Assembly (NCBI GenBank): GCA_009937425.1
Contig: JAACFO010000003.1
Coordinates: 1 to 64,000 of the forward strand
DNA: 64,000 bases
From: Gammaproteobacteria bacterium
Lineage (GTDB): Bacteria; Pseudomonadota; Gammaproteobacteria; HK1
Direction of reading: 5' to 3'
How positions within the stretch are numbered: the stretch's first letter is position 1; each line of letters begins with the position of its first letter. The notes under the pieces are model-generated. The model was not told the origin of the DNA. It ran no database searches and saw only the letters and a program-made list of their open reading frames with translations. A program made the position numbers and the translations under genes. Of the stretch, positions 8,847 to 25,109 are shown one piece after another.

Positions 8847-9764
8847 TCAACCTTCGTCGATGCACCGCCCAACCGCTTCCAGTACGCCCTCGGAAAAACG
8901 TATCCGCACGCGGTCACCATCGATTTCGAAAGCTGCGGCCATACGCGCATCGTCGTGGTACTCCAGAGCGTGCTCCAACACCAAGACGGCATCTCCCACG
9001 TCCACCTCGAAAGGCACGCCCCATTCCGCGGTACCACGCATGAAGCGATAGGCACGCTCCGCGGTAAAGTGCGTATCGAAACGGAAGTCTTTTTCCTTCG
9101 GGAAAGGTTGATAGCTCGCGAGAACCTCATCCTGACGGGTGCGCGGCACTGTTATCCCTGCGCGCATCCTGCGCAACATGTCCACCATCAGCGCAGCGCC
9201 CCTCTCGGCCAATCTGGCGTTAACCTCTGAGAAACGGGCTCCAACCGGTAGCGGCATCACGCCCTGCGCGACGATGTCCCCCGCGTCCAGATCTTCTTCG
9301 ATAATGTGAAGCGTGACGCCAGTCTCCGGCTCGCCTTCTCGGAACTGCCAGAACAGCGGCGTGGGTCCACGGTACGAGGGCAGTACGGAGGGGTGCACGT
9401 TCACGCACATCTGTTTCGGTATCCTCAGCCACGGTCCATTGAGAATCATGGGAAAGCAGGCTACAAGCAGAATATCTGCCTCCAGGCTTGCCACGCGACT
9501 CAGGACCTTCTCGTCGTGCATGGAGCCAACCCGAACCAGCGGTACGTTACCTTCGCTGGCGATGGCAGGCCCGGTACCGGTCACCACCACCGAAATTTCC
9601 TCGCCCAGAGATTCGAAGGCCCTGGTCGGAGGAGGTGCCTCGTGACTAACGAAACCACACACCTCGGTGCCTGCTTGGAGCAAGCACCTCAAGACAGTCC
9701 CCGAGAAAGCGCTGTCGCTTCCGAGCATAAGTATCTTCGGAGCCGAGTTGTCGGTAGTGTTCAT
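8847..9764 (-). CDS. formyltransferase-family protein (methionyl-tRNA formyltransferase-like)
   Basis: NVHPSVLPSYRGPTPLFWQF and EEDLDAGDIVAQ motifs of the Fmt/PurN formyltransferase fold. Confidence 0.82.
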   Translation of the reverse strand: MNTTDNSAPKILMLGSDSAFSGTVLRCLLQAGTEVCGFVSHEAPPPTRAFESLGEEISVVVTGTGPAIASEGNVPLVRVGSMHDEKVLSRVASLEADILLVACFPMILNGPWLRIPKQMCVNVHPSVLPSYRGPTPLFWQFREGEPETGVTLHIIEEDLDAGDIVAQGVMPLPVGARFSEVNARLAERGAALMVDMLRRMRAGITVPRTRQDEVLASYQPFPKEKDFRFDTHFTAERAYRFMRGTAEWGVPFEVDVGDAVLVLEHALEYHDDARMAAAFEIDGDRVRIRFSEGVLEAVGRCIDEG

Positions 9765-9787: not shown

Positions 9788-10210
9788 TTACCGGAAAAGC
9801 GGTTCAACGTCCGCCCAGTGATCCTCCAAGGCGCGCAGAATATCAGCGCGGCTGATTTGACCCGTCATACGACCATTTTCCAGAATCGGGAAACGTCGAA
9901 AGGTGGAACTCATAAACATGTCAGCGGCCTTGATGATATCGGTGCCCGACGCGATGGTCGTTACCTCTTTGCTCATGTAATCAGCCACGCAGCCGCCCCA
10001 CTCCTGGTGATAGCTGGTGTTGTAGACGACTTCCAAGCAGTCCGCTTTCGACAGAACACCGACCAATTTCCCTCTGGGATCGATGACAGGCGCACCGGAA
10101 ATGCGCTCATCCAACAGCAACTTGACGGCCGTGTGAATGTCATCCCCGGGCATAACGGTGATCAGATCCCGTGCCATGTAGTCATCGACGATCGGTACTG
10201 ACTTACTCAT
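9788..10210 (-). CDS. CBS-domain protein
   Basis: two CBS repeats (DYMARDLITVMPGDDIHTAVKLLLDERISGAPVID...; DYMSKEVTTIASGTDIIKAADMFMSSTFRRFPILE...). Confidence 0.85.
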   Translation of the reverse strand: MSKSVPIVDDYMARDLITVMPGDDIHTAVKLLLDERISGAPVIDPRGKLVGVLSKADCLEVVYNTSYHQEWGGCVADYMSKEVTTIASGTDIIKAADMFMSSTFRRFPILENGRMTGQISRADILRALEDHWADVEPLFR

Positions 10211-10249
10211 GGTCCGTCCTTTGTGCATGAACAGTTCATACAGACGCAC

Positions 10250-11494
10250 TCACGCCTGTTCACCCGCGGAACTCGCTCCGCCAAAGTCATCATAATGGAT
10301 GCTTTCCGCTTCCACCCCGAGGTCATCCAACATCGCGAGCACTGCCTTCACCATCAACGGTGGACCGCAAAGATAGTATTCGCAATCTTCCGGCTCAGGA
10401 TGCTGGACCAGATAGTGATCGTAAACGACTTTGTGTATGAAACCTGTATATCCGTCCCAATCGTCCTGTGCCTCCGGGGCGGACAAAGCCACGTGCCAGG
10501 AGAAGTTGTCATGCGCTGCATCGAGTTTCTCGAACAGCTCAGTGTAAAAAAGCTCTCGTCTCGAGCGGCCGCCGTACCAAAAGCTGATCTTGCGCTTGGA
10601 CTTGCGCGTCTCCAGCAGATCCAGAATCTGCGCACGCAGCGGCGCCATCCCGGCGCCACCGCCGATGAACACCGCCTCCTTGTTCGTATCCTCCACGAAA
10701 AAGTGACCGAAGGGCCCGGTCACTTGGACCGAATCAGCAGCCTTCAGTGAGAACAGCCAGCTCGATACGACACCGGGTGGAACCTTTTTTGCGTACGGGG
10801 GTGGCAGGGCGATACGGACGTTGAGAAGGATGTTGTGTTTTTCCCCCGGGTGATTCGCCATGGAATAAGCACGGGTCTGCGTTTGTCGCGCGGCTGCTTC
10901 GAGGGTCCACAGATTACCCCTGTCCCAAGCATCGCGAAAAGCGTCCTCGATATCGAAATCCTTGAAATTGACGCGGAACGAAGGGCAAGTGATCTGCACG
11001 AACCCTCCGGCCCGGAAGTCCATCTCCTCGCCCTCGGGCAGGCTGAGCACGATTTCGCGTATGAGCGTGGACACGTTGCGCGTGCTTTCCACGGTGCACG
11101 TCCAGGTACGAACGCCGAAATAAGCATCGTCCACCTGGACGCTCATGGGAGCCAACACCGGCACCTGACAGGCGAGGCGCGTGCCTTTTAAGGCCTGCGT
11201 TCGCGTCATCTGCGCCAGCTCCTGGGGGCCGGCCTCACCACCGCCTGCGATGACTTGCAGCTTACACAGGCCGCAAGTGCCGGCGCCCCCACAGGCGCTC
11301 GGCAGGCGCACCTCGGCATCTGCTAGCACCTCGAGAAGCCTGCGACCGACGGGAGCTTTAATGGTCATGCGGTCGTTGACGTCGATCTCGCATTCGCCCG
11401 AGGGCACGAACAATCTCCGTGCGAGCAGCACGAACAGTCCCAGCACCAGTACGATGCCGGTAAAGAAGACAACGCCGACGCCAATCTCCACCAC
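10250..11494 (-). CDS. nqrF: Na+-translocating NADH:quinone reductase subunit F
   Basis: 2Fe-2S motif SACGGAGTCGLCKLQV plus RLACQV; FAD motif RAYSMAN; NADH-binding C-terminus ending YDDFGG; operon context. Confidence 0.95.
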   Translation of the reverse strand: MVEIGVGVVFFTGIVLVLGLFVLLARRLFVPSGECEIDVNDRMTIKAPVGRRLLEVLADAEVRLPSACGGAGTCGLCKLQVIAGGGEAGPQELAQMTRTQALKGTRLACQVPVLAPMSVQVDDAYFGVRTWTCTVESTRNVSTLIREIVLSLPEGEEMDFRAGGFVQITCPSFRVNFKDFDIEDAFRDAWDRGNLWTLEAAARQTQTRAYSMANHPGEKHNILLNVRIALPPPYAKKVPPGVVSSWLFSLKAADSVQVTGPFGHFFVEDTNKEAVFIGGGAGMAPLRAQILDLLETRKSKRKISFWYGGRSRRELFYTELFEKLDAAHDNFSWHVALSAPEAQDDWDGYTGFIHKVVYDHYLVQHPEPEDCEYYLCGPPLMVKAVLAMLDDLGVEAESIHYDDFGGASSAGEQA

Positions 11495-11497
11495 GCT

Positions 11498-12103
11498 CTA
11501 CCCTAAGCCCGAAAAGGCCATGAATCCGAGGGACATCAGCCCGACGACCATGAAGCTCATACCGAGGCCCTGGAGACCGTCCGGAATGTCCGAGTATTTG
11601 AGCCGCTCACGGATGGCTGCCAGCATGACGATTGCCAGCGCCCAGCCAGCCCCGGTGCCGAAGCCGTAGACCACGCTCTCCGCGAAGGTGTAACGGCGCT
11701 CCACCATGAACAAGGTGCCGCCCAGAATCGCGCAGTTGACGGTAATCAGCGGCAAGTAGATGCCCAGCGCCCGGTACAGCCTCGGTATGCGGTACTCCAG
11801 AATCATTTCCATGACCTGCACCATGGCGGCGATGACGCCGATGAAGGCAATGAGGCTCAAGAACGACAGATCCACCTCATCGAGCCCCGCCCAGGCCAGG
11901 GCCCCTGGTGCGAGGATGTAGACATAGATGAGGTTGTTGACGGGTACCGTCACGGTCTGCACACAGATGATGGCCAGTCCGACGCCGAAGGCCGTATCAA
12001 CGCGCTTGGAAACGGCCAGGAAAGTGCACATGCCGAGAAAAAACGACAGCGCCAGATTATCGATGAATACCGAGCGCAGCAGAATATCGAAAGACGCGTT
12101 CAA
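11498..12103 (-). CDS. nqrE: Na+-translocating NADH:quinone reductase subunit E
   Basis: [13 protein letters not shown] and [10 protein letters not shown]; polytopic; operon context. Confidence 0.95.
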
Positions 12104-12762
12104 CGTCGTTCCTCCTGCAGTTTCTCGCGAATCTGGAACTCGGACCTATCGACCTGTTCAGGTCTTTTCGTACGGATCAACCAGATGATTCCGCCGATGA
12201 TGAAAAATGCGCTTGGTGGCAGGAGCATCAATTGCAGCGGATCGAAACCACCACCCTGGGCGGTGGTCCAGAGGATTTGAACGCCCAGCAGACTGCCGTG
12301 CCCGAAAAACTCACGTATCGCACCAACCAGCAGAAGTATGAAACCGTAGCCAAGACCGTTTCCTATACCATCGAGAGCGCTGGCGATTACGCCGTGATGC
12401 ATGGCAAAAGCCTCGGCACGACCAAGAACGATGCAGTTGGTGACAATCAGACCCACGAAAACGGATAGACGCAGGCTTATCTCGAATGCAAAGGCCTTGA
12501 GCAATTGGTCGACGATGATGACCAGGGAGGCAATGATGGTGATCTGCACGATAATGCGCACCGAACGTGGAAGGTAACGCCGGATCATGCTCACCGATGC
12601 ACCGGACAACGCCAACACGCAGGTCACAGCACCGGACATGACCAACGCCGTATCCACCGTCGTGGTGACGGCCAACGCGGAGCAGATGCCGAGGATCTGC
12701 AGGGTTATCGGATTCTCCCCGATCAGCGGCGTGGTGAGTGAGTCCCAGTATCGATTGGCCAA
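12100..12762 (-). CDS. nqrD: Na+-translocating NADH:quinone reductase subunit D
   Basis: [14 protein letters not shown] and [16 protein letters not shown]; operon context. Confidence 0.95.
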
Positions 12763-12765
12763 TGT

Positions 12766-13548
12766 TCAACCCTCCCCGCGCCGCACGCGCTCTAGAAATG
12801 GCCCAAAGCCGAAATCACCGAGCCAGAACCGCAACAGATCATGCACACCCTGGCTGGTGCGAGTCGCGCCTGAGATGCCGTCGACCATATGCTCTGCATC
12901 CATGGAGCCCGGTGTAAGCCTGCCCCTGGCAACGCCAATCCTGAGAGCGCCGGCATCGTCGTAGACCCGCTTGCCCGGCCACAGCGCTTCCCATGACGGA
13001 TCCTGTATGCGCGCGCCCATTCCCGGCGTGTCACCCTGCTCGTAGAATTTGAGCGCCACCACCGTAGAGGTGTCGCCCGCCAGAGCCAGAAAACCGTAAA
13101 GGGACGATTGATAGCCGCTGCCGCGCACCGGCAGGATTATCAGCGCAACGCCGCCGTCGGCATCACGAACCAGAAATACAGTGGCATGCTTTTCGCGGCG
13201 TTGGATACCCGCAATGTCATGGTCCGGGGGAATCGGTGTACTGCCGCCGGGATCGGTCGCCGCCTTGCGCGCATCGAAGGTAGCGGGGTCGAACTTGTCG
13301 GAGTAGCGGCCGCTGGTGAGCTCGACGAGCCGGCTTTCGATGTTCTCTGCTGCGACTTCGTGCACCGTTCCCGACAAGGCGCTGAGAATGGATTCGAGCT
13401 GCGCCAAACGGTGTGCTTCGAGATTGGCAACATAGTGTGGCCGCAGCTTGACCGCCGAAACGGAAACCAGCAGTGCACACACCACGGCAACTCCAAGCAC
13501 CGTCAAGAGGGCTTGGATGGGATTTTCACTGAGAGTGCTTTCAGCCAT
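12766..13548 (-). CDS. nqrC: Na+-translocating NADH:quinone reductase subunit C
   Basis: covalent FMN motif DGISGATRTSQGV intact; N-terminal TM segment; operon context. Confidence 0.95.
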   Translation of the reverse strand: MAESTLSENPIQALLTVLGVAVVCALLVSVSAVKLRPHYVANLEAHRLAQLESILSALSGTVHEVAAENIESRLVELTSGRYSDKFDPATFDARKAATDPGGSTPIPPDHDIAGIQRREKHATVFLVRDADGGVALIILPVRGSGYQSSLYGFLALAGDTSTVVALKFYEQGDTPGMGARIQDPSWEALWPGKRVYDDAGALRIGVARGRLTPGSMDAEHMVDGISGATRTSQGVHDLLRFWLGDFGFGPFLERVRRGEG

Positions 13549-14620
13549 ACCCTCGTGCTCGGTGCTTCACGTTGAACCAGATCACAACGTGATCGATGAG
13601 CGGCGCCAGTATGGAACCCATGAGGATGGCGAGGATTACGCCGTCGGGATGTGCCGGATTGGCAACCCGCATGGTCACGACCAGCGCGCCGACGATGAGT
13701 CCCTGCGCCCAGCGCCCCGCATTGGTCGAAGCAGAGCTGGCCGGGTCCGTCGCCAGAAACACGGCGCCGAATGCGAAGCTGCCAAGCAGCACATGCCAAT
13801 ACCACGACAACGTCGTGATCCCCTCCTCACCACCAAACAAATTGCACACGGTGGCGACCAACACGAGGCCAAGCAATTGACCGAGAATCAGCCGCCAGGA
13901 AGCAATGCGCGTCACTATCAACAAAGCCCCGCCCAGGCCTATAGCGAGCAGCGAGGTCGTACCCATCATTCCCTGCAGGTTGCCGAAAACTGCAGCCCAC
14001 CAATCGATGCCCGCTGATACGAGACCATCACCGCCCTCGTTGTGATACAGGGCGAACGCTCTGCTGCCACCATAGCCGGCGATGCCAGTCCACAGGGGGT
14101 GCCCGGTCAGCGCCGTGGGAAAGCTGATCAGCATCGCGGCTGCACCGACCAGGGCCGGATTGACGAATGTCTTGCCCTCACCGCCGAAAATGCCCTTACC
14201 GAAAACGATGGCAAAGGACATGCCCACCGCCAGATGCACCAGGGACACCCCGGGCGGCATCAGCAGCGTCATGAGCACGGCGATCACCAACAGGCCGCTC
14301 TCCCGTTTGCGGCGGCGATAGGTGGCAAACAGCTGCTCCCAAACACCCCCGACCAGTAGCGCCATACCCAGCGCCGGCAGCACGTGGACGAGCCCGGCGG
14401 CGAGCACGTCGAACATTGCAGGATCCGAATAGTTCAGACCCAGGTCTTGCACTAGGCGGCCGCGCCAATCGTATTCATCCACGCCGCCCATCGTATTCAG
14501 CGCTGACAGATATTGGTGGCCGGTGTTGATGACTGCGGCAATCAGTACAGGCAACAACGCAAGCAGGCGGATCGCCTGGATTCGCGCCAGGCTGATCGGC
14601 GCGCGTGCATGCGGCGCCAC
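13541..14620 (-). CDS. nqrB: NqrB-like subunit of Na+-translocating NADH:quinone reductase (divergent)
   Basis: polytopic; GKGIFGGEGKTFVNPALVGAAAML, WWAAVFGNLQGMMGTTSLLAIGLGGALL; operon position between nqrA and nqrC; FMN motif altered (see findings). Confidence 0.92.
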   Translation of the reverse strand: MAPHARAPISLARIQAIRLLALLPVLIAAVINTGHQYLSALNTMGGVDEYDWRGRLVQDLGLNYSDPAMFDVLAAGLVHVLPALGMALLVGGVWEQLFATYRRRKRESGLLVIAVLMTLLMPPGVSLVHLAVGMSFAIVFGKGIFGGEGKTFVNPALVGAAAMLISFPTALTGHPLWTGIAGYGGSRAFALYHNEGGDGLVSAGIDWWAAVFGNLQGMMGTTSLLAIGLGGALLIVTRIASWRLILGQLLGLVLVATVCNLFGGEEGITTLSWYWHVLLGSFAFGAVFLATDPASSASTNAGRWAQGLIVGALVVTMRVANPAHPDGVILAILMGSILAPLIDHVVIWFNVKHRARGYG

Positions 14621-14640
14621 ACGGGTGCGTCCAGGTGTGT

Positions 14641-15927
14641 TTATGTTGCCTCCTCACGCAGCTGCTCGAGCACCCTTCTCAGCAGCAATCCGTAGTCCGT
14701 CTTGGATGGACAAACATAAGAAAGAAGCATCAAATCTTCCTCCACCAGCTCCAGGGCCCCCAGGTCACGGGCACGTTCAACGTCGCCAACCAATAGAGCA
14801 CGCAGCAACGGAACGGGGAGAATGCCTGGTAACGCGACCCGCTCGAAATCGCCGGTAGGAATGAGCGGGCCCGGCTCGCCACCGAGCGCGGTATCAAACA
14901 CCGCTGTGCGCCACGGCGACAAAGATTCCTGATTCGCTTCCGGTAGCGCGGTTATCTGACGATGGTGTCGTCCAAGATAAGCCTCGGTGCCGACAGCAAT
15001 ATGACCGGACAAGAAGGAACCTGAAATTACCCGCGCACCTTCATCGTTCAGTTCACCAGCCGCTACTTCATCGATGGCTGCACCAACCGGAAGCGTAATA
15101 AGGCGTGGATCGTCGACCGCAGGGCCTGCCAGCGAAATGACTCGTTGCAGCCATGACCGGCCAGTTGCCATCAAGCAGCCCAGGGCGATGACGTCCTGGT
15201 AACCGATATGCCACACTTCTGCCCCGTCGAATCCAATGGGGCAGAGTTGATGAATATGCGTTCCTGGAAGCCCGGCCGGGTGCGGGCCCTCGAACTCGGC
15301 AACGTGTAAACGCCTTGATTCGCCCACCGGTATGTCGGCGTTCCCCGCCTGGCAGAGGTATAGCGGTGATTCGGTGAGTTGCGACAAGGCATCCATTCCG
15401 CGGCAGAACTCTGACGGGTGCGCCGCGATGACCAGCGCCGGGTCCGGCGCGAGCGGCTCAGTATCGACAGCAGTGACGAAGAGCGCCTTCGGCTCGCCGG
15501 CGGGATCGGGAATATGACCAAAAGGTCGCGACCTGAGCGCCGTCCAAAGACCAGAATCCAACATCAGCCGCCGGATCTGAGCCCTGCTCGGCATGTCGGG
15601 CACATGGAATACAACGGCATTGTCCGCGTCGTCGCCAATTACCGTCAGGGAAACGAGCGCCCGCCTGGCTCCCCGGTTGATGCTACCCAGCGTTCCGCTG
15701 ATTGGTGAGGTGAAGACGACGGCCGGACGGTGACGGTCACGTAGCAAAGCTTCGCCTGCCTTTACGGAGCTACCTTGCTCCACCAACAGCTCGAACTTAA
15801 CACCGGGGAACTCGCGGCCGAGAATTGCCGCGCTCGCGACGGCCTTTTCATGCACGGTATCGCCTGCCGGCGCACCGGCAATGCTCAAATCAAGCCCCGT
15901 CTTTAATTCGCATCGCATATGCCGCAC
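14641..15927 (-). CDS. nqrA: Na+-translocating NADH:quinone reductase subunit A
   Basis: LKTGLDLSIAGAP...G.EFPGVKFELLVEQGSSVKAGEALLRDRHRPAVVFTSPISGTL; first gene of the nqr operon. Confidence 0.93.
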   Translation of the reverse strand: MRHMRCELKTGLDLSIAGAPAGDTVHEKAVASAAILGREFPGVKFELLVEQGSSVKAGEALLRDRHRPAVVFTSPISGTLGSINRGARRALVSLTVIGDDADNAVVFHVPDMPSRAQIRRLMLDSGLWTALRSRPFGHIPDPAGEPKALFVTAVDTEPLAPDPALVIAAHPSEFCRGMDALSQLTESPLYLCQAGNADIPVGESRRLHVAEFEGPHPAGLPGTHIHQLCPIGFDGAEVWHIGYQDVIALGCLMATGRSWLQRVISLAGPAVDDPRLITLPVGAAIDEVAAGELNDEGARVISGSFLSGHIAVGTEAYLGRHHRQITALPEANQESLSPWRTAVFDTALGGEPGPLIPTGDFERVALPGILPVPLLRALLVGDVERARDLGALELVEEDLMLLSYVCPSKTDYGLLLRRVLEQLREEAT

Positions 15928-15976: not shown

Positions 15977-17203
15977 TCATCCCGATGGGATGATACGCAA
16001 ACTGGCACTTGACGGTTTACTTCCATCAATCGCCTGTTTCAACTCTCTGAGCCGGTCCTCGACTTCCGGCGGCAATCGACCGCCGGGGGATTGCAGGTAT
16101 GTTCGCTGTATTTTCTCCACGAGAAGCGAGTATGCGGGCATCGCCCAAGGCGCATCGGGCGCCAGCACGATGGCGACCTCCAGGTAGAGTTCGGCCTGGG
16201 GCAGCCAGTCGTCCCGATAAATCCGATACTCCGCCAGCCCGAGCAGGTAATGCGCCTCGGAGACCTCCATGGCGCTCGACGGTTTCGAAGCCAGGTATCG
16301 ATGCAGCAGGCTGGACGCCGCAATATTATCCACCAGAGCGCTTCTCCGACTCGGGAAGTCCACACTGGTCGACGCATCAATCACGTCCCTCGCCGACTGC
16401 AGCGGGTCACCGATGAACGGCATGTCTCGAAAGTGCTGCAAACTCACCAACCAGGTTTCCACATCCCCACGCCATGCCGATTGCGGGACGCTGCGCTCCT
16501 CGACGGACTCGAGCACGGGGATGGGACGTTCCATATCACCCTTCACACGGATGTTGACGATCAAATAAGTCCGGAGCACATCCTCCAAGACGACAGGATC
16601 GGCAAATTTCGGTGATTCAATTATCGTTTCCAAGGTGCTGAGAGCGTCGTCGAAACGTCGCATCGCCACTTGGATCCGCGCTCTTTTGTTCAACGGCAAC
16701 GACCAGGCCGCCTGAGAATCAACAAATTGCTTCGCGACCGGCGAGTCACGGGAACTTGGTAAGCGCGTGTGACAGGCGATGCAAACGTCGGTAATCCCAT
16801 AGAGAAGCTGTTGCACCCGTTGGGGCTCGCCGCGCTCGTAGCTTCGCAGGAGCAGGAGGGAATAGCGCTCCAGAACGCTCGCCAGGAACACTCCGGCGCT
16901 GTCCTCGTAAAAACCATGGGATGCGAGAATTGCTGACTGCTCGTCCAGCTCTCGAAGCGCTTCGAGAACTTCTGCCTGGTTCTCTGAACTACCGAAATCT
17001 GCGTCGGACATATCGACCTGAAACAGAAAACGCAGATTCTCGAAAATAACCTGCATGGTTTCGCGGGTAGCCTCTCTCTCGGTCCAATCTGACGATGTCA
17101 CTTCCGTCGTACCGAGAATGCAGAACAAGGCGACAACAAGGCCGCGCCAAAAGCGTCGTCGCCGTCCTGGCTGGAGGCGTGGATCTGATGGGTGAGAACT
17201 CAC
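15977..17203 (-). CDS. exported protein with one CxxCH heme motif and TPR-like repeats
   Basis: signal-like RFWRGLVVALFCILGTTEVTS, CIACH motif, helical repeats; GTG start at 17203 preferred over the ORF-track start at 17341. Confidence 0.65.
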   Translation of the reverse strand: MSSHPSDPRLQPGRRRRFWRGLVVALFCILGTTEVTSSDWTEREATRETMQVIFENLRFLFQVDMSDADFGSSENQAEVLEALRELDEQSAILASHGFYEDSAGVFLASVLERYSLLLLRSYERGEPQRVQQLLYGITDVCIACHTRLPSSRDSPVAKQFVDSQAAWSLPLNKRARIQVAMRRFDDALSTLETIIESPKFADPVVLEDVLRTYLIVNIRVKGDMERPIPVLESVEERSVPQSAWRGDVETWLVSLQHFRDMPFIGDPLQSARDVIDASTSVDFPSRRSALVDNIAASSLLHRYLASKPSSAMEVSEAHYLLGLAEYRIYRDDWLPQAELYLEVAIVLAPDAPWAMPAYSLLVEKIQRTYLQSPGGRLPPEVEDRLRELKQAIDGSKPSSASLRIIPSG

Positions 17204-17282
17204 GATAAACGCGGTGCCGCAGACTGGGCCCGGCGAGAGCCAGGCATATAGCGTAGATTGATGCCGGATCGCCCGCAACACA

Positions 17283-17296
17283 TTGACAGAGATCAA
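17283..17296 (-). promoter_or_regulatory. FNR/DNR-family box
   Basis: minus-strand TTGATctctGTCAA, matching the TTGAT-N4-GTCAA pattern, upstream of the 15977-17203 gene. Confidence 0.65.
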
Positions 17297-17347
17297 GATA
17301 GCCCGGCGGCAGGATTGCCCCACAGGCGCAGGAAAATCCATGATTGA

Positions 17348-17719: not shown

Positions 17720-17733
17720 TTGACATGGATCAA
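17720..17733 (+). promoter_or_regulatory. FNR/DNR-family box
   Basis: TTGACatggATCAA (reverse complement TTGATccatGTCAA), about 75 bp upstream of the cytochrome start. Confidence 0.65.
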
Positions 17734-17805
17734 TCCGGTGACCGGAGAGCCGTGATACAACAACACCGAACTGGGACGCTCACAGCAGCATCGGGAGTGC
17801 AAACC

Positions 17806-18537
17806 ATGAAGAAAATGCAGGCAGCAACATTGCTCGGCGCCGGAATTATCTTTGCCATCGGCGTACTCGCCTGGCCCGGTGCGAGCCTGGCCAAGGAGGT
17901 CGAATCGTCCATGGCGCGTGGCGGTCTTCTCTATGACAAGTGGTACAAGGAAATTGGCGAGAAGGCTCCCGGCACGAAGCATCCGCTGTATCCGGCCGAG
18001 GGAAAGTACGCCAAGAAGGCCGGCGACACCTGGCGCTGCAAGGAGTGCCACGGCTGGGACTACAAGGGCAAAGACGGCGCCTATGCCAAAGGCAAGCACT
18101 ACACGGGCATCATGGGCATCCATGGCATGGCCGGCGGCGATCCGGGGAAAGTTGTCGCACTGCTCAAAGACGACAAGCACGGCTACGGTGACAAGCTGTC
18201 GGACACGGATCTGCAGGATCTCGGCAACTTCGTGACCAAGGGCCAGGTCGATGCGGACAAATACATCGATAGCGCCACCAAAATGCCCAAAAGCGGCGAC
18301 AAGGCCAAAGGTGCGGCCGTTTTCAATACCATGTGCGCGAAGTGCCACGGCATGGATGGCACCGAGCCCGACGACATGAAGAAGTCGCTCGGCAAGCAGA
18401 TGGGTAATCCCTGGGAAGTGATGCACAAGATAATGAATGGTCAACCCGACGAGGAGATGCCGGCGCTGCGTGCGCTGGATCGCGGGGTGGTCATGGACGT
18501 CATGTCGCATATCACCACGTTGCCGAAGAAGCCCTAG
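17806..18537 (+). CDS. diheme c-type cytochrome
   Basis: signal peptide MKKMQAATLLGAGIIFAIGVLAWPGASLA; two CxxCH motifs (CKECH, CAKCH). Confidence 0.88.
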   Translation: MKKMQAATLLGAGIIFAIGVLAWPGASLAKEVESSMARGGLLYDKWYKEIGEKAPGTKHPLYPAEGKYAKKAGDTWRCKECHGWDYKGKDGAYAKGKHYTGIMGIHGMAGGDPGKVVALLKDDKHGYGDKLSDTDLQDLGNFVTKGQVDADKYIDSATKMPKSGDKAKGAAVFNTMCAKCHGMDGTEPDDMKKSLGKQMGNPWEVMHKIMNGQPDEEMPALRALDRGVVMDVMSHITTLPKKP

Positions 18538-18552
18538 TCGAAACCCACTCAC

Positions 18553-18586
18553 GACGCCCTGCCGCAGGATCGGCAGGGCGTCTTTG
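18553..18586 (+). terminator. intrinsic terminator after the diheme cytochrome gene
   Basis: perfect 12-bp stem gacgccctgccg-caggat-cggcagggcgtc followed by ttt. Confidence 0.7.
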
Positions 18587-18649
18587 GGTCGGTCACTTTC
18601 TACCAGCCAGCCGCAAAAAATGGGCTCACTCTGAAATACGGGGACCGAC

Positions 18650-19234
18650 GTGATCAGTCTAGTGCAGCGCTCTTGGCAATGGTTCTGGCGACCCAGCAGC
18701 AAGTACACATGGGGTGGCATCTTCCTCATCGGCGGAGTTGCCGGCATCATTTTCTGGGGCGGCTTCAATACCTTCATGGAGTACACCAACACGATGCAGT
18801 TCTGCATCTCCTGCCATGAGATGGAAGAGAACGTCTACCTGGAATACAAGGAGACCATTCACTTTAAGAACCGTACCGGCGTGCGGACCATCTGCGCCGA
18901 CTGCCACGTCCCCAAGGAGTGGGTCCCGAAGCTCATCCGCAAAATCAAGGCCTCCAATGAGCTGCTCCACAAGGTCATGGGTTCGATCAACACGAAGGAG
19001 AAGTTCGAGGCCAAACGGCTCGAACTGGCAGAGAACGTATGGGCGGCGATGGAGGCGAACGACTCGCACGAGTGCCGCAACTGTCACTCCTTCGAAGCCA
19101 TGGACTTCAAGAAACAGCAGAGTCGCCCGCGCAAGAAGCATCCCAAGGCGAAGAAGCAAGGTAAGACGTGCATCGATTGCCACAAGGGCATCGCACACAA
19201 GCTGCCGGAAGGCTATGAGGAAGAAGACTCATAG
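18650..19234 (+). CDS. nirT: NapC/NirT-family tetraheme cytochrome c
   Basis: N-terminal TM anchor and four CxxCH motifs (CISCH, CADCH, CRNCH, CIDCH). Confidence 0.88.
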   Translation: MISLVQRSWQWFWRPSSKYTWGGIFLIGGVAGIIFWGGFNTFMEYTNTMQFCISCHEMEENVYLEYKETIHFKNRTGVRTICADCHVPKEWVPKLIRKIKASNELLHKVMGSINTKEKFEAKRLELAENVWAAMEANDSHECRNCHSFEAMDFKKQQSRPRKKHPKAKKQGKTCIDCHKGIAHKLPEGYEEEDS

Positions 19235-19250
19235 GCCGACCGGCCGCTAT

Positions 19251-19264
19251 TTGACCTATGTCAA
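19251..19264 (+). promoter_or_regulatory. FNR/DNR-family box upstream of nirS
   Basis: perfect palindrome TTGACctatGTCAA, about 117 bp upstream of the nirS ATG. Confidence 0.7.
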
Positions 19265-19379
19265 AGACCGCTCAGGTGAGGTTTCGGCACTATGTGCCGT
19301 GGATCGGTCCCCGCCGATGGTCCGACGCTAAGAGACTATCGGTCGTGGCCAAACTGAGTAAACAAAAGGAAAGATAGCC

Positions 19380-20990
19380 ATGAAACGAGCAGCAATTGCC
19401 CTCTCTGCCGCCAGCCTGGTGCTTGGACTCGGCCTGAGCGGAATGGCAACGCCAACGGCCGCGGCCGAACCGACCCTGACAGAAGACCAGTTCGAGCACG
19501 CAAAGAATTTGTACTTCCAGCGCTGCGCGGGCTGCCATGGCGTACTTCGCAAAGGCGCCACCGGCAAGAATCTCGAGCCGAAGAACACCCGCAAGAAAGG
19601 CCAGAAGAAGCTCGAGCGGATTCTCACCTTCGGCACCGAAGGCGGCATGAACAACTTCGACGACATCTTCACCAAGGACGAGATCGCGATGCTCGCCACC
19701 TACATCCAGATGCCGCCGCCGATACCACCCGAGCTCAGCCTCGCCGAAATGAAGAAGCGCTGGAAGGTCTTCGTGCCACCCAGCGAGTATCCAAAAAAGC
19801 CAATGCACAGCCGCAATTGGCAGAACTTCTTCCTGGTGATCCTGCGTGACGCGGGCAAACTCGGCGTGATTGACGGCGACACCAAGGAAGTCGTAGCGAA
19901 GGTGGACACGGGCTACGCCGTGCACGTACTGAAGGAGTCCTCGGACGGCAGGTTCTGGTTCACCATGGGCCGGGATGGCAGAATGACCAAGATCGACTTG
20001 TGGATGGATCCGCCAAAGGTGGTGGCCGAGACCCAGATCGCCTTCGACGCACGCGACGTCGCGGTGTCGCAGTACGGCGAGTGGAAGGACAAGTACGTCA
20101 TCGGCGGGAGTTACTGGCCGCCGCACTTCGTCATTCTGGACGCTGAGACCATGGAGCCATTGAAAGTCGTATCCACCCGCGGTGTAAATGTCGACGGCGA
20201 GTATGTGAACGAGTCGCGGGTCGCGGCAGTCTACAACACCCCGAATGCGCCCACCTGGATCGTGGCTGCAAAGGAGCTCGGTCAGCTCTGGCAGGTAGAC
20301 TACAGCGACCTGGATAACCTGCGCATCGATGTGATCAACAGCCACAAGTTCCTGCATGACGGCTTTTTCGATCCCACCCAGCGCTACTTCCAGATCGCCG
20401 CCAACGCCTCTGACCGCATAGAGATAATGGATTCGGTCGAGCGTAAGTTTGTCGCCTCCATCGTGACCGGCAAGAAGCCGCACCCGGGGCCCGGCGCCAA
20501 CTGGATCGATCCGAAGTGTGGGCCGGTCGCCGGCACTACGCACCTGGGCGAAGGCATGATCACGGTGTGGGGCAACGATCCGAAAACCCGCCCGGATGAG
20601 GCGTGGAAGATCTGCTACAAGGTAGAGACGGATGGGCCGGGATTGTTCATACGGACTCACCCGAATTCCAAGTACGTCTGGGCCGATCAGACCAAGCACC
20701 CCGAGCCCTCTGTACAGCAGTCGGTGGTCGTGCTGGACAAGGAGACCGGCAAGATCGTGAAAACAATACGCGTAACCGAGTTTCCCAAGGCCGTCGCGGT
20801 GCACCAGGAGTTCAACAAGGACGGCACCGAGGTCTGGGTGTCCGTGTGGGCCCGCGGCCCGGGCGACCGTGCGAAGGGGGAGATCGTGATTTACGATGCC
20901 AACACCCTCGAGGAGAAAGCGCGTATCAAGGGATTGGAAACCCCCACCGGCAAGTTCAACGTCTACAATCGGATGCACCACGTTACCTGA
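19380..20990 (+). CDS. nirS: cytochrome cd1 nitrite reductase
   Basis: signal peptide, N-terminal heme c (CAGCHGVLRKG), d1 propeller with GYAVH, FLHDGF, PHPGPGANW...THLG and C-terminal PTGKFNVYN. Confidence 0.93.
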   Translation: MKRAAIALSAASLVLGLGLSGMATPTAAAEPTLTEDQFEHAKNLYFQRCAGCHGVLRKGATGKNLEPKNTRKKGQKKLERILTFGTEGGMNNFDDIFTKDEIAMLATYIQMPPPIPPELSLAEMKKRWKVFVPPSEYPKKPMHSRNWQNFFLVILRDAGKLGVIDGDTKEVVAKVDTGYAVHVLKESSDGRFWFTMGRDGRMTKIDLWMDPPKVVAETQIAFDARDVAVSQYGEWKDKYVIGGSYWPPHFVILDAETMEPLKVVSTRGVNVDGEYVNESRVAAVYNTPNAPTWIVAAKELGQLWQVDYSDLDNLRIDVINSHKFLHDGFFDPTQRYFQIAANASDRIEIMDSVERKFVASIVTGKKPHPGPGANWIDPKCGPVAGTTHLGEGMITVWGNDPKTRPDEAWKICYKVETDGPGLFIRTHPNSKYVWADQTKHPEPSVQQSVVVLDKETGKIVKTIRVTEFPKAVAVHQEFNKDGTEVWVSVWARGPGDRAKGEIVIYDANTLEEKARIKGLETPTGKFNVYNRMHHVT

Positions 20991-21556: not shown

Positions 21557-22369
21557 TTAAGTGATGCGTGAGCGCACCGATGCCGAGATAAACTCACTCA
21601 CCAGGACGACTCCGAAGATGGCCACCAGTATCACCGCCACCTCGTCCCAGGCGAACAGATTGATGGAGGAGTAGAGTACGATGCCGATGCCACCCGCACC
21701 GACGAATCCGAGCACGGTGGATTCACGAATGTTGATGTCCCAGCGGTAGATAATCGTTCCAAACACGACGGGTAGCACTTGGGGCAGCACGGCGACCAGC
21801 AGCACTTGCAGCCGGGAGGCACCGGTGGCTTCAATGGCCTCCACGGTACCCTCGTCGATCTCCTCGATGGCCTCGGCGACGAGTTTACCGACGAAGCCGA
21901 TGGAGCGCGCCGTGACGGACCAGACCCCTGCCATGGGACCGGGACCGAATATGGCCACGAAGAATAACCCCCACACCACCGTATTCACCGACCGCGACGC
22001 CACCAGTATGAAACGACCGATGAACCAGGTAACGGCGTTGGGCGTGGTGTTCCTGGCCGCCAGAAACGCGATGGGCAACGCGATGAAAAACGTGGCGGCG
22101 GTGCCGAGAGTGGCAATGTGAACCGTTTCCACCAGCGGATCGATGATCTCGGCAAAGAATTCCCAATACGGCGGCACCATACGGACAAGGAGATCTGCTG
22201 CCTGCTCGTGAGCGTCGAGGAAATAAACCCAGGTAATGTCGAGATTGCTGAGCGACCATACGGCGATGAACACGATCCCTAAGTACCAGCTGTAGCGGAT
22301 CAGTGTTTCCCGCGGTGTGAATCGCTTCCACACTTCGGGGTATTTTCGTGCGTGTTCCTCTGGAGTCAT
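21557..22369 (-). CDS. phnE: phosphonate-type ABC transporter permease (PhnE family)
   Basis: PhnE-like membrane topology and EAIEATGASRLQVLLVAVLPQVLPV; operon context. Confidence 0.88.
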   Translation of the reverse strand: MTPEEHARKYPEVWKRFTPRETLIRYSWYLGIVFIAVWSLSNLDITWVYFLDAHEQAADLLVRMVPPYWEFFAEIIDPLVETVHIATLGTAATFFIALPIAFLAARNTTPNAVTWFIGRFILVASRSVNTVVWGLFFVAIFGPGPMAGVWSVTARSIGFVGKLVAEAIEEIDEGTVEAIEATGASRLQVLLVAVLPQVLPVVFGTIIYRWDINIRESTVLGFVGAGGIGIVLYSSINLFAWDEVAVILVAIFGVVLVSEFISASVRSRIT

Positions 22370-22381
22370 TGTCGAATCGGC

Positions 22382-23182
22382 TCAGCGCAGGCGCGCGCGT
22401 ACCCAGTTGCTGAAGAATTCACCGGCGAAAACCAGCGAGATGATGCTGAGCAGAATCGCCAGACTGAAGTCGTAGTCGTAGCGCGAGAACGTAGCCGCCA
22501 GGGTTTGGCCGATACCGCCGGCGCCCACGATACCGACTACGGTGGAATGGCGGATGTTGGCGTCCAGACGGTAGATAGATACACCCACATAACGCGGCAA
22601 CATCTGAGGCTGGACCGCGTAGAGGAGCATCTTGCCGAAGCTGGCTCCGGTGGCGCGAACCGCCTCCAGCTGTCCCGCACGCATGTTCTCGATATCTTCG
22701 GCCAGCATCTTACCGATGAAACTCATGCTCGCCACCGTCAACGTCATCACACCCGCCAGAGGCCCAAAACCGAATATCTTCACGAAGAAGATGGCGATGA
22801 TGACCTCGTGGAACGTCCGCGAGACGACCAGCACGCCACGCGCCGCGAGATAGACGGGCTTCGGCACCAGATTGGCGGCAGCGCAAACCCCCAACGGAAT
22901 AGCCAGCACCATGCCCATGAAGCTCGCTGCGAGCGCCATCTGCACGCTTTCCAGCAAGCCACGCGCGAGCAGCTGCCAGCGACTGAAATCCGGTGGCACC
23001 ATGCGTGCGAACATATTGCCGGCTCGAGCCATTCCCTGGTCCACACGATGCCAATCGATGTCGAGCGCACCCACCGACCAGGTGAAGTAGACCACTGCTG
23101 CCAGCAGTAGCCCGTAGCGGGTATAGGGATTGGGGATGAACTTCGGCGGGCGCCAGCTCGTAGGATACGCGTGCGAGGTCAT
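22382..23182 (-). CDS. phnE: phosphonate-type ABC transporter permease (PhnE family), second copy
   Basis: [33 protein letters not shown]; operon context. Confidence 0.88.
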
Positions 23183-24000
23183 CCAGCCGCCGATTCGCCT
23201 TCCAGACGGTGGGAGCTGCTCTGGTCCTCTTCCTCGTCGACCTTGCGTATGGTCGTGCTCCAGTCCTCCTCGCCGTAGATGTCGGTGAGCACCTGGGGGG
23301 TCACGGCCTCGGGTGGACCATCGAAGACGACCACGCCGCCGCTCAAGCCAACGATGCGATCCGCATGAGCCTGAGCCAACCCCACGTCGTGGATGTTGAC
23401 CAATGCCGGCGTGCCGCGCTCGTGGGCGAGTTCGACCAGCAAACGCATGATTTGTCGCGCCGTCTTGGGATCGAGGCTCGCCGTTGGCTCGTCCACGAGC
23501 AGCAGTTCGGGTCGCTGCATGAGGGCGCGGGCGATGCCGACGCGCTGGCGCTGACCACCGGAGAGCGCGTCGGCTCGGGTATCCTGGTAGCCCTTGAGCC
23601 CGACCCGCTCGAGCAACTCAAAAGCGGCCGAGATGTCCTCGGGAGGGTACTTCCGCCGGTAAGCCTGCCAGAAGCTCACGTAACCGAGACGTCCCGATAA
23701 CGCGTTCTCCATCACCGTGAGCCTCTCCACCAGATTGTACTCCTGGAAGATCATGCCCATGCGCCGCCGCGCCTTTCTCAATTCCCGCCGGCCGAGGGCC
23801 GTGACGTCGAGGTTGTTGAGAACGACCCGGCCCGAGGTGGGCTCCACCAGGCGATTCACGCACCGGATGAGGGTGCTCTTACCGGCTCCGGAAGAGCCGA
23901 TGATGGCGACCACCTGGGGTTCGTGAATGGTGAAGGTGATGCTCTCGAGAGCGCGGGTGCCGGTCGCATATTCCTTGGCGAGTTCGGTGATGGTCAGCAT
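23179..24000 (-). CDS. phnC: phosphonate-type ABC transporter ATP-binding protein
   Basis: Walker [10 protein letters not shown], signature [15 protein letters not shown], Walker [12 protein letters not shown]. Confidence 0.92.
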
Positions 24001-24026
24001 ATCGGACGACGCACGTCAACAAATAA

Positions 24027-24052
24027 GCCCCGCCCGTATGCACAGGCGGGGC
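24027..24052 (-). terminator. hairpin between phnD and phnC (partial terminator or stabilising stem)
   Basis: gccccgcc ... ggcggggc inverted repeat followed on the minus strand by ttatttgttg. Confidence 0.45.
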
Positions 24053-24080
24053 CTTGGTGAGTTTTAGACTCCAGTGTGAC

Positions 24081-25109
24081 TCAGCTCTTCTTCTTCTTTT
24101 TCTTCTTCTTGAGCTTGAGTCCCTTGAGTGCCTCGTCACTGTAGACGACGCCGTTCTCTGTCTGGATCACCCGGATTGGCTTCCACTGCTCCTTGAACGT
24201 GATGGCGCAGAACTTGTCGGCCTGCTTGCCGAACTCCTTGGCGAGCGCGGTGCCCTTCCAGTCGAAGGTCAGGAATGCGTCGCTCACACTCTTTTGCAGA
24301 TCGGGATGCAGATTGTGCGCGTAGCCGTAAGAGGTCGTCGGAAACGGCTGCGACTCCCAGATGACGCGCAAGTCGCCCTTGTTGACGATCCCTTTGCTCG
24401 CCATGCGATCGAGGACACTCGAGGCAATCGGCGCTGCATCGTAGTCTCGGTTGGCAACACCCATGATGGAGTTGTCGTGCTTGCCCGAGTAGATGACCTC
24501 GTAGTCCTGATCCGGTACCACGCCCATGTCCTTGAACAACGCACGCGGCGCCTGGTTGCCGGAATTGGAGGACGGCGTCACGTGGGCCACCTTACGGCCC
24601 TTGAGATCGCTCACTTTCATGATGTCCGAATCCTGCTGGGTAATGAGCTGCAGCTTGTAACCGAAGCTACCGTCACCCTTGCACATGATGGACATGGGCA
24701 CGTAGCCAGCCAGGTTCACGCCGAAGACCGTGGGTCCCGTGGAGATGCCGGCGACGTGCAGACGGCCAGAGCGCATGGCCTCCACCTGGGCGGCGTAAGA
24801 TTCGGCGCCGTACCACTTGACCTTTTTGCCGGTCTTCTTTGACAGATAGTCCATGAACTCGGTGAATACGTTCTCGTAAACCGACGGGTCTTCCACCGGT
24901 GTGTACGAGAAGATCAGCGTATCGGGATTGAGCAGTTTGCCGGTGTCTGTGGGCGTGTCTGCCACCAGATCACCATTGTCATCACAATAGCGAGAATCGA
25001 GATCGCCGCGATTCTTGCATTCCGCCGCCGCAGCGCTGGTACCGATAAGACAGGTAGCAGCGAGAGCGAGGGCCATCAGGCGTATAAACGATATGAGATT
25101 GTTCGGCAT
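24081..25109 (-). CDS. phnD: phosphonate-type ABC transporter substrate-binding protein
   Basis: signal peptide; SYTPVEDPSVYENVFTEFMDYLSKKTGKKVKWYGAESYAAQVEAMRSGRLHVAGISTGPTVF; operon context. Confidence 0.88.
   Translation of the reverse strand: MPNNLISFIRLMALALAATCLIGTSAAAAECKNRGDLDSRYCDDNGDLVADTPTDTGKLLNPDTLIFSYTPVEDPSVYENVFTEFMDYLSKKTGKKVKWYGAESYAAQVEAMRSGRLHVAGISTGPTVFGVNLAGYVPMSIMCKGDGSFGYKLQLITQQDSDIMKVSDLKGRKVAHVTPSSNSGNQAPRALFKDMGVVPDQDYEVIYSGKHDNSIMGVANRDYDAAPIASSVLDRMASKGIVNKGDLRVIWESQPFPTTSYGYAHNLHPDLQKSVSDAFLTFDWKGTALAKEFGKQADKFCAITFKEQWKPIRVIQTENGVVYSDEALKGLKLKKKKKKKKS

Follow-up and report, generated by a model that had tools for sequence, protein, structure and literature searches.

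Loss of the canonical FMN acceptor threonine from NqrB in a clade of six-gene Na+-NQR operons of uncultured Gammaproteobacteria

A distinct clade of gammaproteobacterial Na+-NQR operons encodes an NqrB in which the position of the canonical FMN acceptor, Thr236 in Vibrio cholerae (Vc), is never occupied by Ser or Thr. Purifying selection acts on these operons, which have all six genes, and from the sequences we infer that flavinylation of their NqrB no longer takes place at the canonical site. We consider the odds slightly better than even (a probability of roughly 0.5) that NqrB of this clade carries no ApbE-linked flavin at all, so that the FMN of NqrC would reduce riboflavin directly or via a non-covalently held group. 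An earlier note on the window (the whole stretch of 64,000 nucleotides analysed here) had suggested that one covalent flavin is missing or relocated. The canonical site of the NqrB flavin (FMN-B) has disappeared from an entire clade whose operons are complete and under selection, so loss and relocation are the right alternatives to consider.

According to profile and PDB matches, the window carries a complete nqrABCDEF operon on the minus strand (10250-15927), adjoined by a gene for a CBS-domain protein:

14641..15927, minus strand: nqrA, 428 aa (TIGR01936, 386 bits, cut-off 321)
13541..14620, minus strand: nqrB variant, 359 aa, GTG start (PF03116, 230 bits; PDB 7xk3_B, E 5e-75)
12766..13548, minus strand: nqrC, 260 aa, flavinylation motif DGISGAT intact (NF003749, 258.8 bits, cut-off 255)
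12100..12762, minus strand: nqrD, 2Fe-2S Cys27/Cys110 kept (TIGR01939, 277 bits, cut-off 245)
11498..12103, minus strand: nqrE, 2Fe-2S Cys26/Cys124 kept (TIGR01940, 313 bits, cut-off 248)
10250..11494, minus strand: nqrF, 2Fe-2S cysteines kept (TIGR01941, 546 bits, cut-off 295)
9788..10249, minus strand: CBS-domain protein gene adjoining nqrF (PF00571)

NqrA, NqrC, NqrD, NqrE and NqrF pass their NCBIfam cut-offs, and NqrB scores under those of the nqrB equivalogs (285.9 versus 349.9 bits for TIGR01937 and 328.1 versus 414 for NF003756). Despite these scores, the Pfam PF03116 and PDB matches leave no doubt that the protein is an NqrB, and the tree described below places it there too. Its frame, described previously as intact, is indeed open over 359 aa. 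The late start, put at about 50 residues in the earlier note, comes to ~44, since the alignment begins at Vc residue 45; upstream of the GTG codon there are at most 11 further in-frame residues and then a stop. The statements that NqrC keeps DGISGAT (D223-T229) and that the iron-site cysteines of NqrD (C27/C110) and NqrE (C26/C124) are present hold as well.

A gene with two CBS domains lies just downstream of nqrF (or apbE) in the variant and in most canonical operons (it is also found at L062, L064-L066, L069, L071-L074, L077, L078, L147-L150, L152 and L153) and was therefore rejected as a clade marker. Its product could be a nucleotide-sensing regulator of NQR. In the window it is followed by a formyltransferase-domain gene (8847-9764, minus strand), which is well under the fmt cut-off and whose position is conserved in the sister species only. 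Upstream of nqrA, 15977-17341 (minus strand) encodes a protein with one CxxCH motif and no Pfam family, of which a 68% identical copy lies by nqr in the sister species only. Beyond it are divergent genes for a cytochrome c, a NapC/NirT-type tetraheme protein and a cytochrome d1-domain protein (17725-20990, plus strand), the last of which has no NCBIfam match at 1e-20 and may not be a standard nitrite reductase, and phosphonate/phosphite ABC transporter genes (phnC, two phnE and a phnD-like gene; 21557-25109, minus strand).

The acceptor loop of NqrB was aligned to the Vc protein with HMMER, and the alignment is gap-free nearby:

14051..14080, minus strand: former FMN acceptor loop AGYGGSRAFA, residues 181-190, aligned to Vc DGYSGATALS
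14060..14062, minus strand: Arg187, equivalent to Vc Thr236, the canonical FMN acceptor position; never Ser/Thr in the 16 intact clade members
14063..14065, minus strand: Ser186, equivalent to Vc Ala235; Ser/Thr in 16/16 clade members

The alignment thus agrees with the original reading that SGAT has become GGSR, with Arg at the acceptor position, and that the preceding Asp is Ala: Arg187 matches Thr236, and Ala181 matches Asp230, the Asp of the ApbE motif. A sequencing error or frameshift is ruled out: in a second genome from this genus the orthologous NqrB is 74% identical and reads AGTR, and 14 further distinct genes have other non-Ser/Thr residues at 236. A search for an S/T-G-A-T/S acceptor elsewhere in this NqrB returned a single motif-like run, D292-PASSAS298, which we rejected: it falls on the cytoplasmic side, at Asp346 of the riboflavin site, and is absent from most clade members. 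An AlphaFold model built from a 36-sequence alignment has pLDDT 84, pTM 0.85 and a TM-score of 0.90 (over the query) to V. cholerae NqrB 7xk3_B. Its confidence is low at the acceptor loop (residues 181-183 are below 50), and for this reason loop geometry was not used.

For further relatives, 84,980 species genomes were scanned, as was a sample from the class. The clade with the same loss, for which a search had been proposed, comprises 16 distinct intact NqrBs and one frameshifted copy, all from uncultured Gammaproteobacteria; no member outside the class was found in a 399-genome sample of the phylum. The frameshifted sequence (L076) is a second nqrB-like clade copy in FCS_Gamma_070, its 3' half disrupted by decay or assembly error. 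At position 236 the intact proteins have Asp (seven), Arg (five), or Lys, Asn, His or Gly (one each). Asp230 is lost in all 16, so that the ApbE consensus D-x-x-[ST]-G-A-[ST] (PMC12052999) is absent from the clade NqrB. In a tree of 78 rows, computed without the acceptor loop, the membrane subunit groups with NqrB and not with RnfD (support 100), and the clade forms a single branch (support 100) inside NqrB. Pairwise dN/dS of the clade nqrB genes is 0.10-0.18.

Loss of the old hydroxyl is accompanied by a new one next to it. Position 235 is Ser in 14 and Thr in two of the 16 clade members, versus Ala in all 62 canonical rows of the alignment (33/33 NqrBs and 29/29 RnfDs). The acceptor might therefore have moved by one residue, with FMN bound covalently to Ser/Thr235 in a complex much like ordinary NQR. 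The interchange of Ser and Thr looks as if the hydroxyl matters, and the replacement of Thr236 by unrelated residues would fit a freed position. ApbE accepts Ser, and changing the motif Asp to Ala had a minor effect in a fumarate reductase (PMC12052999). The order of events points the same way. In a tree of NqrC-F, which leaves NqrB out, L148 adjoins the clade (support 100/97), with some risk in its exact placement as it sits on a long branch, and L075 is one step further out (100/100). The sister species carries L148 (L031/L148) as its second nqr operon, whose NqrB reads AGTT, with Thr at both 235 and 236. L075 has HGLSGAT in NqrB, keeping Thr236, and has already lost Asp230 and Arg209 of NqrB and Trp146 of NqrC, with Ser at NqrB position 335. 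The ladder from SGAT through AGTT to xG[ST]x shows that Ser/Thr235 arose before Thr236 was lost. Given that the new hydroxyl was there before the old one went, a one-residue relocation is the main rival to loss of FMN-B. Against it, the ApbE motif in the shifted register is poor, with Tyr/Phe instead of Ser/Thr at -3 and Gly instead of Ala at -1, and both the NqrC interface and the FMN-ring contacts have changed too. We regard relocation as a possible but tentative explanation.

The flavin surroundings bear on the same choice. At the level of the whole protein, 33% of 123 NqrB positions (those with 95% or higher conservation among 32 canonical sequences) are lost in the clade; positions invariant in six canonical operons are lost at ~8% in NqrD and NqrE and at 18% in NqrC, the bases differing so that the comparison is indicative only. 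In the structure of RnfD the FMN ring is lined by Arg130, Gly237 and Ser284 (PMC9588780), and the aligned Vc Arg209, Gly335 and Met383 are almost all changed in the clade. Glu185 (Vc Glu274) is Thr in 14/16, but this position varies in canonical NqrB too. All four canonical-invariant FMN positions are lost versus 37/119 other invariant positions (Fisher p 0.011); as the positions were taken from the literature and the clade is diverged, this lends modest support to a change of the FMN site. Among the riboflavin contacts (PMC10643135), Gly198, Phe342 and Asp346 are kept in all clade members and Ala205 in 15/16; Asn203 is Ser in four, Asn200 is Thr, Ser or Ala, and Thr162 of the riboflavin site is Ile or Val in ten. 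Every clade NqrC seen has the acceptor Thr and the Asp of D..SGAT, and NqrD, NqrE and NqrF likewise keep their cysteines. Changes in NqrC fall at Leu145 and Trp146, which are contacts of its FMN (FMN-C; PMC9325719), and at Leu226, which, changed to Cys, had been combined with NqrB P376C for disulfide mapping of the interface (PMC10643135). By alignment, NqrC is thus altered where FMN and NqrB are contacted. The corresponding sites in the window are:

14141..14143, minus strand: NqrB Ala160, aligned with Vc Arg209 and RnfD Arg130, FMN-ring lining
14168..14170, minus strand: NqrB Thr151, equivalent to Vc Asn200, riboflavin ribityl contact; Thr/Ser/Ala in the clade
13108..13113, minus strand: NqrC Tyr146-Gln147, equivalent to Vc Leu145-Trp146, FMN-C contacts; changed in all clade members
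12859..12864, minus strand: NqrC Thr229 (FMN acceptor, kept) and Arg230, equivalent to Vc Leu226; Arg in all clade members

NqrC needs ApbE, and ApbE was found in 18/19 genomes searched, the exception being the metagenome-assembled G383, where its absence is provisional. The apbE gene adjoins nqrF in only one of 12 clade operons with enough flank (L065), versus three of six canonical operons compared. The window genome has apbE copies elsewhere, one of the points raised at the outset: one near a canonical nqr operon on contig C84 and a second on C195. That canonical operon (VDGFSGATALS) is the second nqrB whose presence might have undermined the initial suggestion. That condition partly applies in the window genome, but most clade genomes lack another NqrB, with the exceptions of G000, G001 (AGTT operon) and G387 (two clade copies), these absences being provisional in metagenome-assembled genomes. 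In three clade genomes the clade gene is the sole PF03116 member, and others add RnfD only.

Loss of FMN-B is favoured because position 236 is never Ser/Thr, Asp230 is gone, FMN-ring contacts are changed while riboflavin contacts are mostly kept, the FMN-C contacts and an NqrB-interface residue of NqrC are altered, dN/dS is low and apbE is seldom by nqrF. It is disfavoured because Ser/Thr235 is invariant and older than the loss of Thr236, and because the gap between FMN-C and riboflavin would be long (published 5.7-7.8 Å, about 8 Å, plus ring length). It is further weakened because L075/L119 keeps SGAT although Arg209 and Gly335 are gone there as well, so that these changes by themselves are no proof of the loss of FMN-B, and neither is that of Arg209 alone. 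If FMN-B is indeed absent, the clade would have a six-subunit NQR in which NqrB is unable to take FMN from ApbE at the canonical Thr and NqrC is the carrier of the sole standard ApbE-linked flavin. Electrons would then flow from NADH to FAD and 2Fe-2S in NqrF, to the 2Fe-2S cluster of NqrD/E, to FMN in NqrC, to the NqrB riboflavin and to quinone, the step from FMN-C to NqrB leading through a rebuilt periplasmic pocket. The NqrC flavin might be re-docked and pass electrons on directly, a route that has been proposed for two-subunit Nqr/Rnf-like complexes (PMC10979944), or the step might use a non-covalently held group.

Several histidines of NqrB are characteristic of the clade:

14234..14236, minus strand: His129, equivalent to Vc Gln178; His throughout the clade and in none of the canonical NqrBs, RnfDs or near relatives
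14099..14101, minus strand: His174, equivalent to Vc Asp223; His in 14/16 intact clade members
13649..13651, minus strand: His324, equivalent to Vc Tyr378; His in the clade (16/16) and in the two nearest relatives

Together with His242 (15/16 clade members), they are all periplasmic by predicted topology. It is conceivable that the pocket holds another redox group, such as heme or a metal, on clade-specific histidines that take the place of flavin contacts (His178 with His378 or His223), and if this were true, a six-subunit NQR would run on a different cofactor chain. The strict restriction of His178 to the clade speaks for such a centre. However, neither His223 nor His242 is invariant, relatives keeping Thr236 have His378 too, and NqrB has no haem motif, which makes a histidine-held group quite improbable.

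Changes extend to the sodium path. Asp52, Glu157 and an exit Glu (E273 in the text, aligned here as Glu274) have been described as strictly conserved along the Na+ path proposed for NqrB (PMC10643135), and nearly all clade members have other residues at these positions, though two keep Asp52. The window's organism has Complex I, which is present in 16/16 genomes searched, and the variant NQR is therefore an additional NADH dehydrogenase. Such redundancy, the changed N-terminal region, the altered quinone and Na+ path residues and the frameshifted extra copy could all be taken to mean that the complex is decaying or no longer reduces quinone, with NqrB as a structural subunit. With 16 intact copies, the low dN/dS and all other cofactor ligands kept, we find this the least probable of the readings. 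NqrM, presumably required to mature the iron-sulfur cluster of NqrD/E, gave no match (PF04400) in nearly all clade genomes. The short model also misses it in G000, which has canonical NQR; NqrM may be absent or diverged, and its loss is at most a possible clade marker.

To our knowledge, loss of FMN-B was known before only in two-subunit Nqr/Rnf-like complexes, and the literature searched, with most subscription journals outside its scope, held no description of a six-gene NQR of this kind. The clade is a real variant of a known enzyme. It shares with V. cholerae Na+-NQR (PDB 7xk3, 8a1t) the six subunits, gene order, NqrF and NqrD/E cysteines, NqrC acceptor Thr, riboflavin Asp346, gate Phe338/Phe342 and overall NqrB fold (TM 0.90), and differs from it in lacking Thr236, Asp230 and the N-terminal ~44 residues, in having Ser/Thr235, and in changes to FMN-ring residues, to the Na+ path (Asp52, Glu157, Glu274) and to part of the riboflavin site. 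The V. cholerae NqrB-T236Y variant (PDB 9ud3, 9ud4), on which our literature search found nothing relevant, also has a residue at 236 unable to take FMN canonically, but it is a single engineered change as opposed to a natural, clade-wide loss with surrounding changes. RnfD of the RNF complex is an NqrB homologue, and Asp380 and Phe216 of the clade resemble it; nonetheless, the clade lies inside NqrB, and RnfD rows keep Thr/Ser236, Ala235 and Asp230. The two-subunit complexes (Huang et al. 2024, PMC10979944) similarly combine an NqrB/RnfD-type subunit lacking the flavinylation Thr with a flavinylated NqrC-type partner, but have two genes and a fused NAD-binding domain instead of six separate genes.

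FMN-B counts as an obligatory step in electron transfer through NQR/RNF, and the membrane-subunit cofactors are described as strictly conserved in a 2025 review (PMC12174285). With a natural clade whose complete operons lack the acceptor, the necessity of FMN-B becomes testable. Na+ pumping has been assigned to NqrB (Hau 2023, PMC10643135) and, in a rival model, to RnfA/E, the counterpart of NqrD/E (PMC11889175). Because the path acids of NqrB are lost and NqrD/E are nearly unchanged, Na+ transport in the clade bears on this dispute and could help decide between the two models. The clade thus offers a natural test of both electron transfer and sodium pumping in Na+-NQR.
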